Assembly (NCBI RefSeq): GCF_016743335.1
Contig: NZ_WCJE01000024.1
Location: 1 to 35,741 of the forward strand
Reading direction: 5' to 3'
DNA from: Streptococcus suis
GTDB lineage: Bacteria; Bacillota; Bacilli; Lactobacillales; Streptococcaceae
Length of the DNA stretch: 35,741 nucleotides
The notes beneath the pieces were generated by a model, which saw nothing but the letters and a program-made list of their open reading frames with translations, had not been told where the DNA came from and ran no database searches. A program made the translations under genes and the position numbers. Numbering within the stretch: position 1 is the first letter of the stretch; the number at the start of each line of letters is the position of its first letter. This document shows, piece after piece, positions 17,290-24,150 of the stretch.

Positions 17290-19713
17290 ATGACGACTAA
17301 ATCAGATAAGCAAGATTTTAAAAAGAAAATCAGTGCCCTAGGCTTAGGGGATGTAGTAGGAGTTTTCCTTCGGACGCTGAAATTATTATTCAATTCAGTA
17401 GCTGTCTTGGTGTTCCTATTCGGTCTTTTTGGTGCGGGCATAGGAATTGGTTTCGTGGTTAGTCTTTTTGATGACGTTAAGATTCCCAAAACAGAGGAAC
17501 TGGTAGCGAAGGTTTCAGAAGTTAGTCGGATTTCCACCGTTACCTATTCGGATGGTAGCTTGGTGTCGGAAGTTAATTCAGATCTGCTTCGTGTACCCAT
17601 TACTTCGGAAGAGGTCTCGAATTATCTAAAACAGGCTGTAATTGCGACAGAGGATGAAACATTTGAAACCCACAATGGGGTTGTGCCTAAGGCTGTTTTG
17701 CGTGCGGCACTGGGATCAGTTGGTCTAGGTTCATCTAGCGGTGGTTCAACCTTGACGCAGCAATTGATAAAACAGCAACTTGTCGGAGATGCTCCAACCT
17801 TTACGCGTAAGGCTAATGAGATTGTTTCGGCTTTGGCATTAGAGCGGAATATGACCAAGGAAGAGATTTTGACCATTTACTTAAATGTTTCTCCATTTGG
17901 TCGAAATAATCAGGGACGAAATATTGCAGGGGTAGAAGCTGCGGCTCAGGGAATTTTTGGTAAACCAGCGAAAGACTTGACTGTTCCGCAGGCTGCTTTT
18001 ATTGCAGGCTTACCTCAAAGTCCGATTGTTTATTCTCCCTATGCATCAGATGGAACACGTAAATCAGATGAAGATATGATTTACGGTATTGAACGCTATC
18101 AAGATGTTCTCTTTAATATGTATCGGGCGTCATTCTTGACCAAGGAAGAATACGAAACCTACAAAGCTTACGATATTAAACAAGATTTTATTGCTCCAGC
18201 TCCTGTAATGGCGGATACGAAAGATTATCTCTACTACGAGGTCATGGAAGAAGCGCAAGAGGTTATGTTTGATTATCTGGTAAAACGCGATAAGGTTTCT
18301 GAAAATGACTTGAAAAACGATGAAACTAAGGCTTCCTATGAAGAATTGGCTAAGCAAGAATTGAGTCAAGGCGGCTATACGATCAAGAGTACCGTTGATC
18401 AAGTAATCTATGCGGCGATGCAGTCTGTTGTGGCAAATTATGGCTCTGTTTTGGATGATGGAAACGAATATGTCGAGACAGGCAGTGTCTTAATTGATAA
18501 TGCCACAGGGGCCATTTTAGGATTTGTGGGTGGTCGCGATTATGCAACCAACCAAAATAACCATGCCTTTGATACTCTTCGTTCGCCAGCGTCAACCATC
18601 AAGCCTCTGTTAGCTTACGGTATTGCGATTGATCAAGGTTTGATAGGTTCTGCCAGCATCCTTTCCGATTATCCAACGAACTTCTCAAGTGGACAACCGA
18701 TTATGTATGGTTCAGGACGTGGTACTGGTATGATGAACTTACAGACGGCTATTGACCGTTCTGTTAACATTCCTGCTTTTTGGACCTATAAGATGATGAG
18801 AAATGCAGGTGTAGATGCCAAAGCGTACATGGATAAAATGAATTATCATATTCCTATGTACGATATTGAAAGTGTACCGTTGGGCGGTGGTGTTGAAATT
18901 TCAGTATTGACAAATACCAATGCCTATCAAACTTTGGCAAATGGTGGCGTTTATAACAAACATTACATTGTTGAAAGCATTACTGCTTCTGATGGAACAG
19001 TAGTGTATCAGCATGAAGCGGCTCCGGTTCAGGTCTATTCTAAAGCAACTGCAAGTATTATGAACCAGCTTTTGAGACAGGTTGTCAACTCTGGTTATAC
19101 TACGACGTTCAAGAGTCGATTGAGTGGTTTAAACCCACAGGCAGCATCATCTGATTTCGTCGGTAAGACGGGAACAAGTAATGAAGTCAATGACGTGTGG
19201 CTCATGCTATCAACCCCTAGAGTAACTTTAGGTACCTGGGCTGGGAATGATGATAACTCAGAAATGTATGTCTGGACAGGCTACCACAATAATTCACAAT
19301 ATGTGGCCTATATGGTTGATGCGCTTTACAATGTTAATGCGGATATGTTCGCAGGAAAATTTGAATTAGACAGTAGTGTTATTGCTTCTAGTGTCGTTGC
19401 TTCTACAGGTCAACGTGCAGGGACGACACAGGTAAATGGGCGCCAAGTAACAGTTGGTGGTGCGATGACAACTAGTTATTGGGCTAAAAATGGTGCACCA
19501 GTAACGAGTTATAACTTCATGGTTGGGGGGACAGATAGTGACCGAGCACAGGCTTGGAATACAATTATCGGTTCCCAAACGCCAACATCAAGTAGCTCAA
19601 CCCAACGAAGCAGTTCGACTCGGAGTAGAACGAGTTCTTCAGCTAATAACACGAACCAGTCATCAGAAACGCAAACAGCAACTAGTGAGCAAGCGAATAA
19701 TGATTCACCTTGA
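17290..19713 (+). CDS. pbp1b: Class A penicillin-binding protein (PBP1b type)
   Basis: This 807-residue bifunctional cell-wall synthase has a cytosolic N-terminus, one membrane segment (about 35-60) and then a GT51 glycosyltransferase with catalytic ATEDETFETHNG (E121) and GGSTLTQQLIKQQL. The transpeptidase has SxxK in SPASTIKP (about residue 436), an SVN-type motif in DRSVNIPAFW and KTGTSNE (about 625). The C-terminal 50 residues are Ser/Thr/Asn-rich, as in streptococcal PBP1b. GGAG lies 8 nt before the ATG. The stop codon overlaps the -35 box of the next promoter, which leads into the rpoB leader. Confidence 0.93.
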   Translation: MTTKSDKQDFKKKISALGLGDVVGVFLRTLKLLFNSVAVLVFLFGLFGAGIGIGFVVSLFDDVKIPKTEELVAKVSEVSRISTVTYSDGSLVSEVNSDLLRVPITSEEVSNYLKQAVIATEDETFETHNGVVPKAVLRAALGSVGLGSSSGGSTLTQQLIKQQLVGDAPTFTRKANEIVSALALERNMTKEEILTIYLNVSPFGRNNQGRNIAGVEAAAQGIFGKPAKDLTVPQAAFIAGLPQSPIVYSPYASDGTRKSDEDMIYGIERYQDVLFNMYRASFLTKEEYETYKAYDIKQDFIAPAPVMADTKDYLYYEVMEEAQEVMFDYLVKRDKVSENDLKNDETKASYEELAKQELSQGGYTIKSTVDQVIYAAMQSVVANYGSVLDDGNEYVETGSVLIDNATGAILGFVGGRDYATNQNNHAFDTLRSPASTIKPLLAYGIAIDQGLIGSASILSDYPTNFSSGQPIMYGSGRGTGMMNLQTAIDRSVNIPAFWTYKMMRNAGVDAKAYMDKMNYHIPMYDIESVPLGGGVEISVLTNTNAYQTLANGGVYNKHYIVESITASDGTVVYQHEAAPVQVYSKATASIMNQLLRQVVNSGYTTTFKSRLSGLNPQAASSDFVGKTGTSNEVNDVWLMLSTPRVTLGTWAGNDDNSEMYVWTGYHNNSQYVAYMVDALYNVNADMFAGKFELDSSVIASSVVASTGQRAGTTQVNGRQVTVGGAMTTSYWAKNGAPVTSYNFMVGGTDSDRAQAWNTIIGSQTPTSSSSTQRSSSTRSRTSSSANNTNQSSETQTATSEQANNDSP

Positions 19714-19738
19714 TTTTTCCTAGTACTTGTGCTATAAT
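19710..19738 (+). promoter_or_regulatory. Candidate promoter of the rpoBC leader
   Basis: TTGATT (19710-19715), a spacer of exactly 17 bp and TATAAT (19733-19738), preceded by the extended element TGC, form a strong promoter. Its -35 overlaps the PBP stop codon. Transcription from here would give rpoB a 5' leader of about 830 nt, containing the hairpin at 19794-19834 and the repeat array. Confidence 0.8.
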
Positions 19739-19793: not shown

Positions 19794-19840
19794 AGCAGTT
19801 AAATCAAACTTTTTCAAAGGAAGATTTAGCTGCTCTTTTT
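19794..19840 (+). terminator. Terminator-like hairpin in the rpoB leader (possible attenuator)
   Basis: AGCAGTTAAATC (19794-19805) pairs with GATTTAGCTGCT (19823-19834), all 12 positions including one G-T pair. C and five T residues follow. It stands about 50 nt after the predicted start of the upstream promoter. It may stop PBP read-through, or act as an attenuator for rpoBC. TTGTC/GACAA pairing at 19776-19787 could form a second small hairpin just before it. Confidence 0.65.
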
Positions 19841-19947
19841 GTGTCTATGAGGAATTTTTTTGAGAATTGTTACCTATTCTTAAAGATTCTAAAAATTCAG
19901 AAAAAGGATGAATATTAGTCATCACATGGCTGTATATAATTGAACTC

Positions 19948-20548
19948 GGGCTACACTCCTGTAGAACTTTGACTTTGTTTACCCCTTGGCGTCGTAAACG
20001 TCTGAACTTTCTTCGACATTCTGTCAAGAAAGTCCTGGTCGTTCTGACGAGGATGCGTCAACGAAATCAAAGATTTCGGACTTACCGCTTATTTTCTTTT
20101 GGAGTGTTAAACGCCCTCGTATCTTTAATTGAACTCGGACTAAATTCGTCGGAAAAAAGATAAATCTCCTAGTGTCTGATGACACTTCGTTGATTTCCTA
20201 TTTTCTCTCGAATTTTACGTCCTCGTATCTTTTAATTGAACTCGGACTAAATTCGTCGGAAAAAAGATAAATCTCCTAGTGTCTGATGGCACTACGTCGA
20301 TTTCCTATTTTTCTCTCGAATTTTACGTCCTCGTATCTTTTAATTGAACTCGACCTAAAACCTGTGTGAAAAAGATAGAGCTCCTTGTGTCTGGTGACAC
20401 GGCGTCACTCTCCTATTTTCACTTTGGTTTTCACGGTCTCGTATCTTTTAATTGAACTCGCCTACAACTCTGTGAAAAAAGATAAACAGCTCCTAGGAGG
20501 CTTGCCTCCGTCGTCGTGTTTCCTATTTTTCTTTGAGTTGTTTACGGC
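19948..20548 (+). ncRNA. Tandem array of five structured RNA units in the rpoB leader
   Basis: Five consecutive units each begin and end with complementary arms: 19948-20116, 20137-20222, 20244-20330, 20352-20438 and 20460-20548. They are separated by a conserved linker of about 20 nt containing GTATCTTTTAATTGAACTC; the copies before units 1 and 2 are shorter. The outer helix is GGGC/GCCC, GGAC/GTCC (twice), GACC/GGTC and GCC/GGC. The next helix is ACACTCC/GGAGTGT, AAATTCG/CGAATTT (twice), AAAACC/GGTTTT and ACAACTC/GAGTTGT. Each pair changes together. Units 2-5 share an inner element, A-rich AAAGATA opposite TCCTATTTT, then covarying AATC/GATT, GAG/CTC or AACA/TGTT. A GC-rich apical hairpin follows (AGTGTC/GACACT in unit 2, GGAGGC/GCCTCC in unit 5). 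No convincing coding frame runs through. I do not recognise a known RNA family. Regulation of rpoBC is inferred from position. Confidence 0.85.
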
Positions 20549-20577
20549 TTAGTATCTTATTACAAAGGAGAAAACTT

Positions 20578-23500
20578 TTGGCAGGACATGAAGTTCAGTA
20601 CGGTAAGCACCGTACCCGTCGTAGTTTTTCAAGAATCAAGGAAGTTCTTGATTTACCAAATTTGATTGAAATCCAAACGGACTCTTTCCAAGACTTTTTA
20701 GATTATGGTTTGAAAGAAGTCTTTGAAGATGTACTTCCAGTTTCAAACTTTACGGATACCATGGAATTGGAATTCGTTGGTTATGAATTGAAAGAGCCTA
20801 AATACACATTGGAAGAGGCGCGTGCGCATGATGCGAACTACTCAGCTCCAATCTATGTGACTTTCCGTCTGGTGAATAAAGAAACTGGCGAGATCAAGAC
20901 ACAAGAAGTCTTCTTCGGTGAGTTTCCAATCATGACTGAAATGGGTACCTTCATCATCAACGGTGCAGAGCGTATCATCGTTTCTCAGTTAGTTCGTTCA
21001 CCAGGTGTCTACTTCAATGATAAAGTAGATAAGAACGGTAAAGTTGGTTATGGTTCAACGGTTATTCCTAACCGTGGAGCTTGGTTGGAATTGGAAACAG
21101 ATTCAAAAGACATTGCCTACACTCGTATTGACCGTACGCGTAAGATTCCGTTCACAACGCTTGTTCGTGCGCTTGGTTTCTCAGGCGATGATGAAATCTT
21201 TGATATCTTTGGCGATAGCGAATTGGTTCGCAATACCATTGAAAAAGATATTCATAAAAACCCAGCAGATTCTCGTACAGATGAAGCCCTCAAGGAAATC
21301 TATGAGCGTCTTCGTCCAGGTGAGCCAAAGACAGCTGAAAGCTCTCGTAGCCTTTTGACAGCTCGTTTCTTTGACCCACGTCGTTACGATTTGGCATCTG
21401 TTGGTCGTTACAAGATTAATAAAAAACTCAACCTCCGTACTCGTTTGCTCAACCAAACACTTGCTGAGCATGTGATTAACGGTGAGACAGGCGAAATTGT
21501 CTTGGAAGCTGGTACTGTATTGAGTCGTGATGTGCTTGAAAAAGTAGAAGCACAATTCGATGAGCTCAACTTGGTAGAATATATTCCAAATGACAACGCT
21601 GTTCTTCTTGAACCAGTTCTTTTGCAGAAATTCAAGATTGTAGCTCCTAAGGATCCAGAACGTGTTGTGACGGTGATTGGTAATGCTAATCCAGCAGAAA
21701 ACGTACGTACAGTAACACCTGCGGACATCTTGGCTGAAATGAGCTACTTCCTCAACTTGGCTGAGGGTCTTGGTCGTGTAGATGATATTGACCACTTGGG
21801 GAACCGTCGTATTCGTGCCGTTGGTGAATTGCTTGCCAACCAAGTACGTATCGGTTTGACTCGTATGGAACGTAACTTGCGTGAGCGTATGTCGGTTCAA
21901 GACAATGAAGTATTGACGCCACAACAAATCATCAATATCCGTCCTGTTACAGCTGCAATTAAAGAATTCTTTGGTTCATCTCAGTTGTCACAGTTCATGG
22001 ACCAACACAACCCACTTTCTGAGTTGTCTCACAAACGCCGTTTGTCAGCCTTGGGACCTGGTGGTTTGACTCGTGACCGTGCTGGTTATGAGGTTCGAGA
22101 CGTTCACTACACTCACTATGGTCGTATGTGTCCGATTGAAACGCCTGAGGGACCAAACATCGGTTTGATCAACAACTTGTCTTCTTATGGTCACCTCAAC
22201 AAGTATGGCTTCATCCAAACACCATACCGCAAGATTGACCGTGCAACTGGTACAGTTACAAACGAAATTGTTTGGTTGACAGCGGATGAAGAAGATGCCT
22301 ACATCGTAGCACAATCAACATCACCACTTGATGAAAACAACCGTTTCGTTGATAAGATTGTTATGGGACGTCACCAAGGTAACAACCAGGAATTCCCAGC
22401 TGATTCAGCAGACTTCATGGATGTTTCTCCAAAACAGGTAGTTGCCGTTGCGACAGCATGTATTCCTTTCTTGGAAAACGATGACTCCAACCGTGCCCTC
22501 ATGGGTGCCAACATGCAACGTCAGGCTGTCCCATTGATTGATCCAAAAGCGCCTTACGTTGGTACTGGTATGGAATACCAGGCTGCCCACGACTCAGGTG
22601 CGGCAATCATCGCTCAACACGATGGTAAGGTTGTTTACGCAGATGCGGACAAGGTAGAAGTGCGTCGTGAAGATGGATCGCTTGATGTCTACCACATTTC
22701 TAAATTCCGTCGTTCAAACTCGGGTACTGCCTACAACCAACGTACCCTTGTAAAATTGGGCGACATCGTAGAAAAAGGTGACTTCATCGCAGATGGACCT
22801 TCTATGGAAAATGGGGAAATGGCTCTTGGTCAAAACCCTATCGTTGCCTACATGACCTGGGAAGGTTACAACTTCGAGGACGCGGTTATCATGTCTGAAC
22901 GCCTTGTGAAAGACGATGTCTATACATCTGTTCACTTGGAAGAATACGAATCAGAAACACGCGATACCAAGTTAGGCCCTGAAGAAATCACACGCGAAAT
23001 TCCAAACGTTGGTGAAGATGCCCTTCGCAACTTGGACGAAATGGGGATTATCCGTATTGGTGCCGAAGTTAAAGAGGGCGACATTCTTGTTGGTAAAGTC
23101 ACACCAAAAGGTGAAAAAGATCTTTCTGCTGAAGAGCGTCTCTTGCACGCGATCTTCGGTGACAAGTCACGTGAAGTACGTGATACCTCTCTTCGTGTAC
23201 CTCACGGTGCCGATGGTGTCGTTCGTGATGTGAAAATCTTTACCCGTGCCAACGGTGATGAATTGCAATCAGGTGTTAACATGTTGGTTCGTGTTTACAT
23301 CGCTCAAAAACGTAAGATTAAGGTCGGAGATAAGATGGCCGGTCGTCACGGTAACAAGGGTGTCGTTTCACGTATTGTACCTGTTGAGGATATGCCATAT
23401 CTTCCAGACGGAACACCAGTTGACATCATGTTGAACCCACTCGGGGTGCCATCACGTATGAACATCGGTCAGGTTATGGAACTTCACTTGGGTATGGCGG

Positions 23501-24150
23501 CTCGCAACTTGGGCATTCATATCGCAACACCAGTTTTCGATGGTGCAAGTTCAGAAGACCTCTGGTCAACTGTTAAAGAAGCAGGTATGGATTCAGATGC
23601 CAAGACCATTCTTTACGATGGACGTACAGGTGAGCCATTTGATAACCGTGTGTCTGTCGGTGTCATGTACATGATCAAGCTTCACCACATGGTTGATGAT
23701 AAACTCCACGCCCGCTCAGTCGGACCATACTCACTCGTTACCCAACAGCCACTCGGAGGTAAGGCTCAGTTTGGTGGTCAGCGTTTCGGTGAGATGGAGG
23801 TTTGGGCCCTTGAAGCCTACGGTGCTTCTAACGTCCTTCAAGAAATCTTGACTTACAAGTCAGATGATGTGACAGGCCGTCTGAAAGCCTATGAAGCCAT
23901 CACCAAAGGTAAACCAATTCCAAAACCAGGTGTTCCAGAATCATTCCGCGTTCTTGTCAAAGAATTGCAATCACTTGGTTTGGATATGCGTGTCCTTGAT
24001 GAAGACAACAACGAAGTAGAATTGCGTGACCTTGATGAAGGTGAAGATGATGACATCATCCACGTAGATGATCTTGAAAAAGCACGTGCAAAAGCCGCAG
24101 CTGACGCAGCCGCAGCCTTTGCCGCAGAAGAAGCAGAAGGCAAAGAATAA
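20578..24150 (+). CDS. rpoB: RNA polymerase beta subunit
   Basis: This 1190-residue catalytic subunit of RNA polymerase starts at TTG 20578, with AAAGGAG 7 nt upstream. The product then begins with the usual [16 protein letters not shown]; upstream codons lie in the leader. The rifampicin region (about residues 464-495, [19 protein letters not shown] then [12 protein letters not shown]) shows the normal residues at the positions equivalent to D516, H526 and S531 of E. coli. No resistance change is therefore visible. The KVTPKGE and [12 protein letters not shown] active-site blocks are intact. The C-terminus is acidic, then Ala-rich. It is followed by rpoC after a structured 177-nt gap. Confidence 0.98.

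Follow-up and report, generated by a model that had tools for sequence, protein, structure and literature searches.

Several dispersed repeats have been described from streptococci, and the sections of the genome survey drawn on here give BOX, RUP and SPRITE as the described pneumococcal repeats (PMC3049150). According to the same sections, BOX was in 2011 reported as nearly absent outside pneumoniae, mitis and suis, and the boxE-boxF elements of S. suis have end modules of 115 and 133 nt around boxB; RUP is 107 bp long, has ends like those of IS630-Spn1 and is found in pneumococcus and little in mitis; SPRITE consists of an 18-bp duplex followed by a U-rich tract, with AAAA/TTTT ends; and RUP and SPRITE, with a mean G+C of 27.5% and 28.1%, are almost absent from S. 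sanguinis (PMC3049150). The palindromic repeats of transcribed intergenic regions mentioned there include BIME, ERIC and Correia (PMC3049150). In a systematic stem-loop survey, pneumococcus has BOX, RUP and Stre-1, and no clusters are listed for S. pyogenes (PMC2267715). A second kind of precedent comes from phage T4, where a hairpin between the Shine-Dalgarno sequence and the start codon of genes 38 and 25 shortens the effective spacing from 22 to 5 nt and from 27 to 11 nt (PMC3014915). Those are single phage genes with 22- and 27-nt spacers, as against the present case of a dispersed repeat of about 100 nt at many chromosomal genes and with a predicted function only.

The present study analyzes an array of hairpin units in the rpoB leader of Streptococcus suis, in a window that comprises the whole 35,741-nt stretch of DNA analysed, and follows related copies through other genomes. 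Like BOX (S. pneumoniae and S. suis, including RepSU1), the element is dispersed, intergenic, hairpin-forming and modular with exchangeable inner parts, but the restricted range of BOX differs from the genus-wide one of the element, which was detected in 32 of 35 other streptococcal genomes. A BOX query found 46 places in the same S. suis genome, and those listed match none of the 34 places of the element when compared by eye; R2, a covariance model of the element used unfiltered, covers 0 of 20 BOX sites, one 47-nt chance-level match touching an edge. Membership of BOX/RepSU1 was rejected. Among four further BOX sites one (L081 735-847) has a full-length chance-level R2 match (8.5 bits, E 9.8, reverse complement), and the best BLAST similarity between element and BOX is 24 nt long, also in reverse complement, with E 0.01; because these two agree in orientation, remote kinship with BOX is possible.

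RUP and SPRITE are likewise about 100 nt long (107 bp for RUP), dispersed and hairpin-forming. As described, they have a low G+C, that of the element being mostly 33-47%, and are almost absent from S. sanguinis, in which the element has 18 matches. Its presence in most genomes of the genus is unlike the distribution of RUP, known here by description, and, again compared by description, it is one long hairpin closed by its outermost helix with no defined U tract, unlike SPRITE. BIME, ERIC and Correia repeats have other hosts and are also set apart by their descriptions; we know of no rule by which any of these splits Shine-Dalgarno sites. The earlier note on this DNA knew of no described RNA family with this form, and Rfam agrees: on the array no family passes its gathering threshold and none matches up to E 1, so that a known RNA family was rejected, and the window as a whole yields only Lacto-rpoB and tRNAs. 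Searched at the level of titles and the beginnings of abstracts, a collection of open-access papers returned no account of the element or of Shine-Dalgarno splitting by a dispersed repeat, and searches on the dnaK-dnaJ intergenic region and on split Shine-Dalgarno sites outside T4 yielded nothing further.

The rpoB leader and the dispersal of its units

The array spans 19942-20556 between a PBP gene and rpoB, and consists, as first noticed in the earlier note, of five consecutive units whose ends pair, all on the forward strand. Unit 1 (19942-20123; type a) is a 182-nt form, measured from P0 strand to P0 strand, with a long apex different from that of units 2-5, and is recognized by its fold and outer-helix ends. 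Units 2 (20131-20229; type b), 3 (20238-20337; type b), 4 (20346-20445; type c) and 5 (20454-20556; type d, short apex) are recognized by the same two features and by covariance-model matches with E values of 2e-23, 1e-24, 1e-23 and 2e-13, respectively, and from unit 2 onward they are direct repeats spaced 107-108 nt apart. Reading 5' to 3' on this strand, a promoter-like TTGATT-17-TATAAT with TG before the second hexamer (19710-19738; a consensus match only) lies just upstream of the Lacto-rpoB RNA (RF01709; 19749-19806; Rfam, 70.8 bits), which shares the rpoB leader yet is separate from the array and upstream of it. There follow a 12-bp stem with a T-run (19794-19840), the five units, the rpoB Shine-Dalgarno AAAGGAG (20564-20570), which is not split, and the TTG start codon of rpoB (20578-24150; LAGHEVQYG...), 21 nt downstream of the 3' end of unit 5. 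The stem after Lacto-rpoB has the strands AGCAGTTAAATC/GATTTAGCTGCT, and its pairs are invariant in 25 distinct streptococcal leaders. These come from 35 of 47 loci, namely those that fit a search pattern in which the final stem bases are already prescribed. Together, stem and T-run resemble an attenuator of rpoBC that has been conserved.

What the leader holds is a tandem cluster of five copies of a structured repeat of about 100 nt that is dispersed through Streptococcus genomes. At the DNA level, six additional places were found in the same S. suis genome, and the covariance model, which misses the long unit 1, found 34 matches there, four in the rpoB leader and 30 elsewhere. The earlier note had proposed a covariance-model search of streptococcal genomes; of 35 others, 32 match at E 0.001. 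Named genomes gave 14 matches in S. pneumoniae, 18 in S. sanguinis, 21-31 in three S. suis, 7 in S. gallinaceus, 13 in S. caballi, 19 in S. vestibularis, 29 in S. massiliensis, 14 in S. halichoeri and 102 in S. merionis, and none in S. zalophi, Floricoccus, two Enterococcus, Ligilactobacillus, Fructobacillus and Gemella. Copy number depends on the search filters, as the 102 for S. merionis compare with 64 for a genome with the same coordinates in the 35-genome search. An order-wide draw of 246 genomes gave 51 with matches at E 1e-5, namely 33 Streptococcus and 18 weaker ones that belong to two other families and have a core in common with the streptococcal element. One genome of this draw has a run of eight units at a spacing of about 122 nt; the runs read comprise two to six units or more. 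In another Lactobacillales family (L319, L321, L324, L326, L336) runs of two to six related units begin 0-5 nt after a stop codon.

The earlier note had suggested a role in polymerase expression, and an array specific to rpoB, acting as a set of binding, antitermination or processing sites, would be consistent with five tandem units in sense orientation in this leader and with a related array in one genome of another family, where it separates rpoB from rpoC. We consider this very improbable. As many as 76 of 80 rpoB loci are without a match at E 0.01, including close S. suis relatives, 30 of the 34 matches in the same genome lie outside the rpoB leader, and antisense copies make up 58 of the 148 that lie between codirectional genes. 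The four occupied named loci are S. suis YS161, S. suis 2187, S. massiliensis and, weakly, S. sanguinis; the rpoB leader of S. suis HCJ31 has no match despite an identical RpoB N-terminus (133 residues). A regulator specific to rpoB was rejected on the dispersal through the genome and the low occupancy of rpoB leaders, and the array probably rides along in a long 5' leader as a polymorphic passenger.

Fold of the unit and the level at which pairing is kept

Each unit folds end to end into one long irregular hairpin. Aligned with MAFFT, 42 copies taken from 11 genomes, every genome counted once, support 29 pairs, far above chance: 94.1% of the cells pair, against 71.8% in shuffled alignments, cells changed on both sides number 278, against 84 in shuffles and 21-50 in slid controls, both-sided changes are present in 26 of the 29 pairs, and the covariation score is 0.595 against 0.184 in shuffles. 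All helices listed in the earlier note were recovered, and its observation that they differ in sequence while pairing is kept stood; the parts that it had taken for constant and single-stranded proved to be paired. The 3' part of the supposed linker, GAAC, and its 5' part, GTATC, are the two strands of the outermost helix P0, which has the form GA-AC-N / N-GT-A-TC with a bulged A and itself covaries (GAAC/GTATC, GAAT/ATATC, GAGC/GCATC, GAGT/ACATC). The A-rich side and TCCTATTTT are likewise paired, on either side of a conserved GATA/CCTA internal loop that, set within A/T-rich helices, is the most constant inner part of the unit.

The apex is exchangeable. Short and long apices have been exchanged between units with common outer helices in S. 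suis YS161 and 2187, where the order of units also differs: the outer helices of unit 1 carry a short apex in S. suis 2187 (L041), and those of unit 5 carry a long apex in both strains. The long apex is a module of about 110 nt with several small hairpins that in some units replaces the short one while the outer helices are kept (window 19942-20123; L040 4369-4765; L041 4663-4868). A third insert, of about 50 nt (TTTTGGCTTTAGCCAATTACA...CTACCTTTAGGT), is common to copies near rpsG in the same S. suis genome (L006) and to S. massiliensis L070.

The covarying copies had been taken in the earlier note as pointing to selection on RNA structure, of which the covariation is upheld and the selection at the level of RNA is weakened. 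Over the 27 pairs of the model, alternative Watson-Crick pairs number 1360, G-U 120 and A-C 62. Pair 11 alone gives 49 of the 120 G-U, and without it the totals, which are sums over copy classes in alignments fitted to the model, are 71 G-U and 57 A-C, with 25 and 16 in sense copies and 26 and 26 in antisense copies; the dnaJ orthologs alone have 14 and 9. The Lacto-rpoB leader of the same genus, a small control of 25 distinct leaders (35 of 47 loci caught by pattern), has 28 alternative Watson-Crick pairs, 17 G-U and 1 A-C. Since G-U and A-C are nearly equal in the element, against 17:1 in Lacto-rpoB, pairing may be kept at the level of DNA. Both arms change jointly, and the wobble intermediates that selection on RNA should leave are few. 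Our interpretation is that well-paired copies spread as DNA and that this is the main way in which pairing is kept, RNA effects being possible at single sites. The lack of a G-U excess is also a warning that covariation among dispersed copies is no proof of RNA-level selection.

Template switching was rejected as the sole source of pairing, as the closest copies (15 pairs at least 93% identical) differ mostly on one side (9 vs 1) and more diverged ones mostly on both; it may have contributed. Spread as DNA is indicated by the absence of wobble asymmetry, the occurrence of copies in both orientations, the occupancy of the rpoB leader in four of 80 loci and the exchange of apices, and the element is short and dispersed with inverted-repeat ends, as MITEs are. 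A search for target-site duplications or a clean empty site found none, the rpoB leaders with and without the array being too diverged. Since, in addition, the places at dnaJ, rplC, carB and fusA-rpsG are common to several species, we propose mobility in the past or present and not specifically in the present.

An alternative explanation could be that the repeat is simply a neutral, MITE-like parasite with a target preference at the borders of coding sequences, tolerated there and playing no part in the mRNA. This is a somewhat unlikely account, although tandem arrays, both orientations and A-C almost as common as G-U are all in its favor, as are antisense copies that adjoin stop codons, seen also in other families at five of the 16 places read. 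What it fails to predict is a Shine-Dalgarno sequence at exactly 4 nt before P0 in all 13 of the class I copies described below, and the element at dnaJ in 25 of the 30 loci read.

Placement at coding sequences and the proposed split ribosome-binding site

Placement was read from 190 distinct copies in 13 genomes, 90 sense and 58 antisense between codirectional genes and 42 of other classes, with orientation set by script from open reading frames. These are the best-scoring copies and include orthologs and five genomes of the S. suis clade, so that the counts are not independent events. Clear ends were present in 158 copies, 105 sense and 53 antisense, those longer than 130 nt or failing the end patterns being excluded. 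Of the sense copies, 49 have the hairpin 3' end 0-11 nt upstream of a start codon (at least 3 of these start assignments, L157, L159 and L200, are doubtful), with a peak of 34 copies at 6-8 nt and none at 12-15 nt. Among the 53 antisense copies, 29 have their 3' end 0-8 nt from the stop codon that closes the upstream gene, and none has it at 9-99 nt; none of the 158 copies brings its 5' end within 29 nt of coding sequence. P0 variants with GAG in the 5' strand (GAGC/GCATC, GAGT/ACATC) were seen in 19 of the 53 antisense copies and 2 of the 105 sense copies.

A Shine-Dalgarno-like motif occurs in the 40 nt on the far, 5' side of the hairpin in 43 of the 49 start-abutting sense copies, compared with 7 of the 56 remaining sense copies and none of the 53 antisense ones. 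A stricter pattern retains 42 of the 49. In 13 of these (class I), which we take to represent seven genes, the motif ends exactly 4 nt before P0 and lies 8, 10 or 12 nt from the start when only nucleotides outside the hairpin are counted. In the other 29 (class II) it is 13-35 nt 5' of P0, and where sequences were read or folded the gap is filled by an extra small 5' hairpin. The Shine-Dalgarno is thus too distant from the start, with a predicted hairpin between. Family models identify the downstream genes as pheT, alaS, carB, prfA, dnaJ, dihydrolipoyl dehydrogenase, deoD, parC, purB and proS, truncated PheT and dihydrolipoyl dehydrogenase pieces scoring just below the cut-offs. Start codons are supported in nine of these ten genes by a family model that begins within 8 residues of the start; the dihydrolipoyl dehydrogenase model begins at residue 127.

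Patterns detected are consistent with a structured repeat, likely spread as small mobile DNA, whose hairpin is predicted to rejoin the Shine-Dalgarno and the start codon, i.e. a hairpin-bridged split ribosome-binding site, and this is the reading we favor, with moderate confidence. If P0 forms in the mRNA it would close the base of the hairpin on itself, so that a folded class I copy would leave 8-12 nt between Shine-Dalgarno and start, the same distance as with the repeat absent, and ribosomes would initiate across about 100 nt of folded RNA. P0 pair 5 is Watson-Crick in only 35 of the 49 start-abutting copies, and class II would need the extra 5' hairpin to be assumed. At rpoB, where the Shine-Dalgarno is 3' of the array, bridging is unnecessary. 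A bolder version, to which we give a little less than an even chance, is that the repeat amounts to a "translational intron": a genus-wide mobile hairpin that inserts into the few bases which separate the Shine-Dalgarno from the start codon in core genes (dnaJ, prfA, pheT, alaS, parC, purB, proS), is never spliced and would be skipped as its closed base restores the distance, pairing being kept since only self-closing copies would be harmless enough to spread.

Streptococci, including pneumococcus, carry a structured, dispersed repeat that Rfam misses in front of core genes of translation and of chaperones, and such a repeat can come to occupy the most sensitive few bases of essential genes. 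If ribosomes do initiate across the hairpin, bridged initiation, known from two T4 genes, would turn out to be common in a bacterial genus and open to direct testing there, and any expression model that looks for the Shine-Dalgarno close to the start would be wrong for genes bearing the element.

The split arrangement was followed at dnaJ and prfA in the best 30 loci of 58 genomes for each gene. Because a first labelling of five remnants was circular, relying on their lack of a near Shine-Dalgarno, the element was re-called with R2, which has no Shine-Dalgarno in the model, the Shine-Dalgarno being scored separately. R2 finds the element immediately upstream of the start at 25 of 30 dnaJ and 5 of 30 prfA loci. 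In all 30 of these the 24 nt next to the start contain no Shine-Dalgarno, and one stands 60-200 nt upstream. Of the loci without an R2 match and with a start found (it was not found in four of the 60 loci, 1 dnaJ and 3 prfA), 24 of 26 carry a near Shine-Dalgarno, and in the two exceptions (dnaJ L278 and L280) the ends resemble changed remnants. R2 confirms three of the five remnants (L274, L285, L291) and misses L278 and L280.

It is possible that the hairpin masks the site instead of bridging it, because RNAfold pairs at least two Shine-Dalgarno bases in 21 of 26 dnaJ leaders, mostly AAGG with UCUU after P0, in the minimum-energy fold. The 3' tail of the hairpin would then pair with the Shine-Dalgarno at start codons and block translation until the pairing is opened, whether by temperature, by a protein or by a ligand. 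Both dnaJ and dnaK, which are heat-shock genes, host copies, as such a switch might lead one to expect. We nonetheless regard masking as unlikely, since the bases of the tail vary (TTAT, ATAA, ATTA, CTAT) while P0 covaries and many of the hosts are housekeeping genes (pheT, alaS, prfA, parC, purB).

Copies lie in the transcribed spacers of core operons: by family models they follow rpsH, rpsG, rpsO, pdhC and dnaK, and others are at what are presumably rpsJ-rplC, a 23S-5S spacer, a tRNA cluster and carA-carB, named by reading. An intercistronic element for mRNA stability or RNase III processing, like BIME or Correia repeats, would fit the many copies between genes of translation operons (after rpsH, rpsG and rpsO, and by reading at rpsJ-rplC and the 23S-5S spacer), and a hairpin right after a stop codon could shield the upstream mRNA. 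Such an element leaves placement at start codons with a split Shine-Dalgarno unexplained, and we assign it a low probability. The favored reading, bridging, for its part does not explain the abutment of antisense copies to stop codons, which points to an insertion preference or a second role.

Some places are common to pneumococcus and S. suis, namely rpsJ-rplC (sense), rpsG-fusA (antisense), carB and dnaJ. At L003 and L015 of the genome under study (C79) an antisense copy lies between apparent 23S and 5S rRNA and would belong to the rRNA precursor. Shortened or strongly altered elements that keep their 3' end lie at the Shine-Dalgarno/start position in L291 (prfA) and in L274, L278, L280 and L285 (dnaJ).
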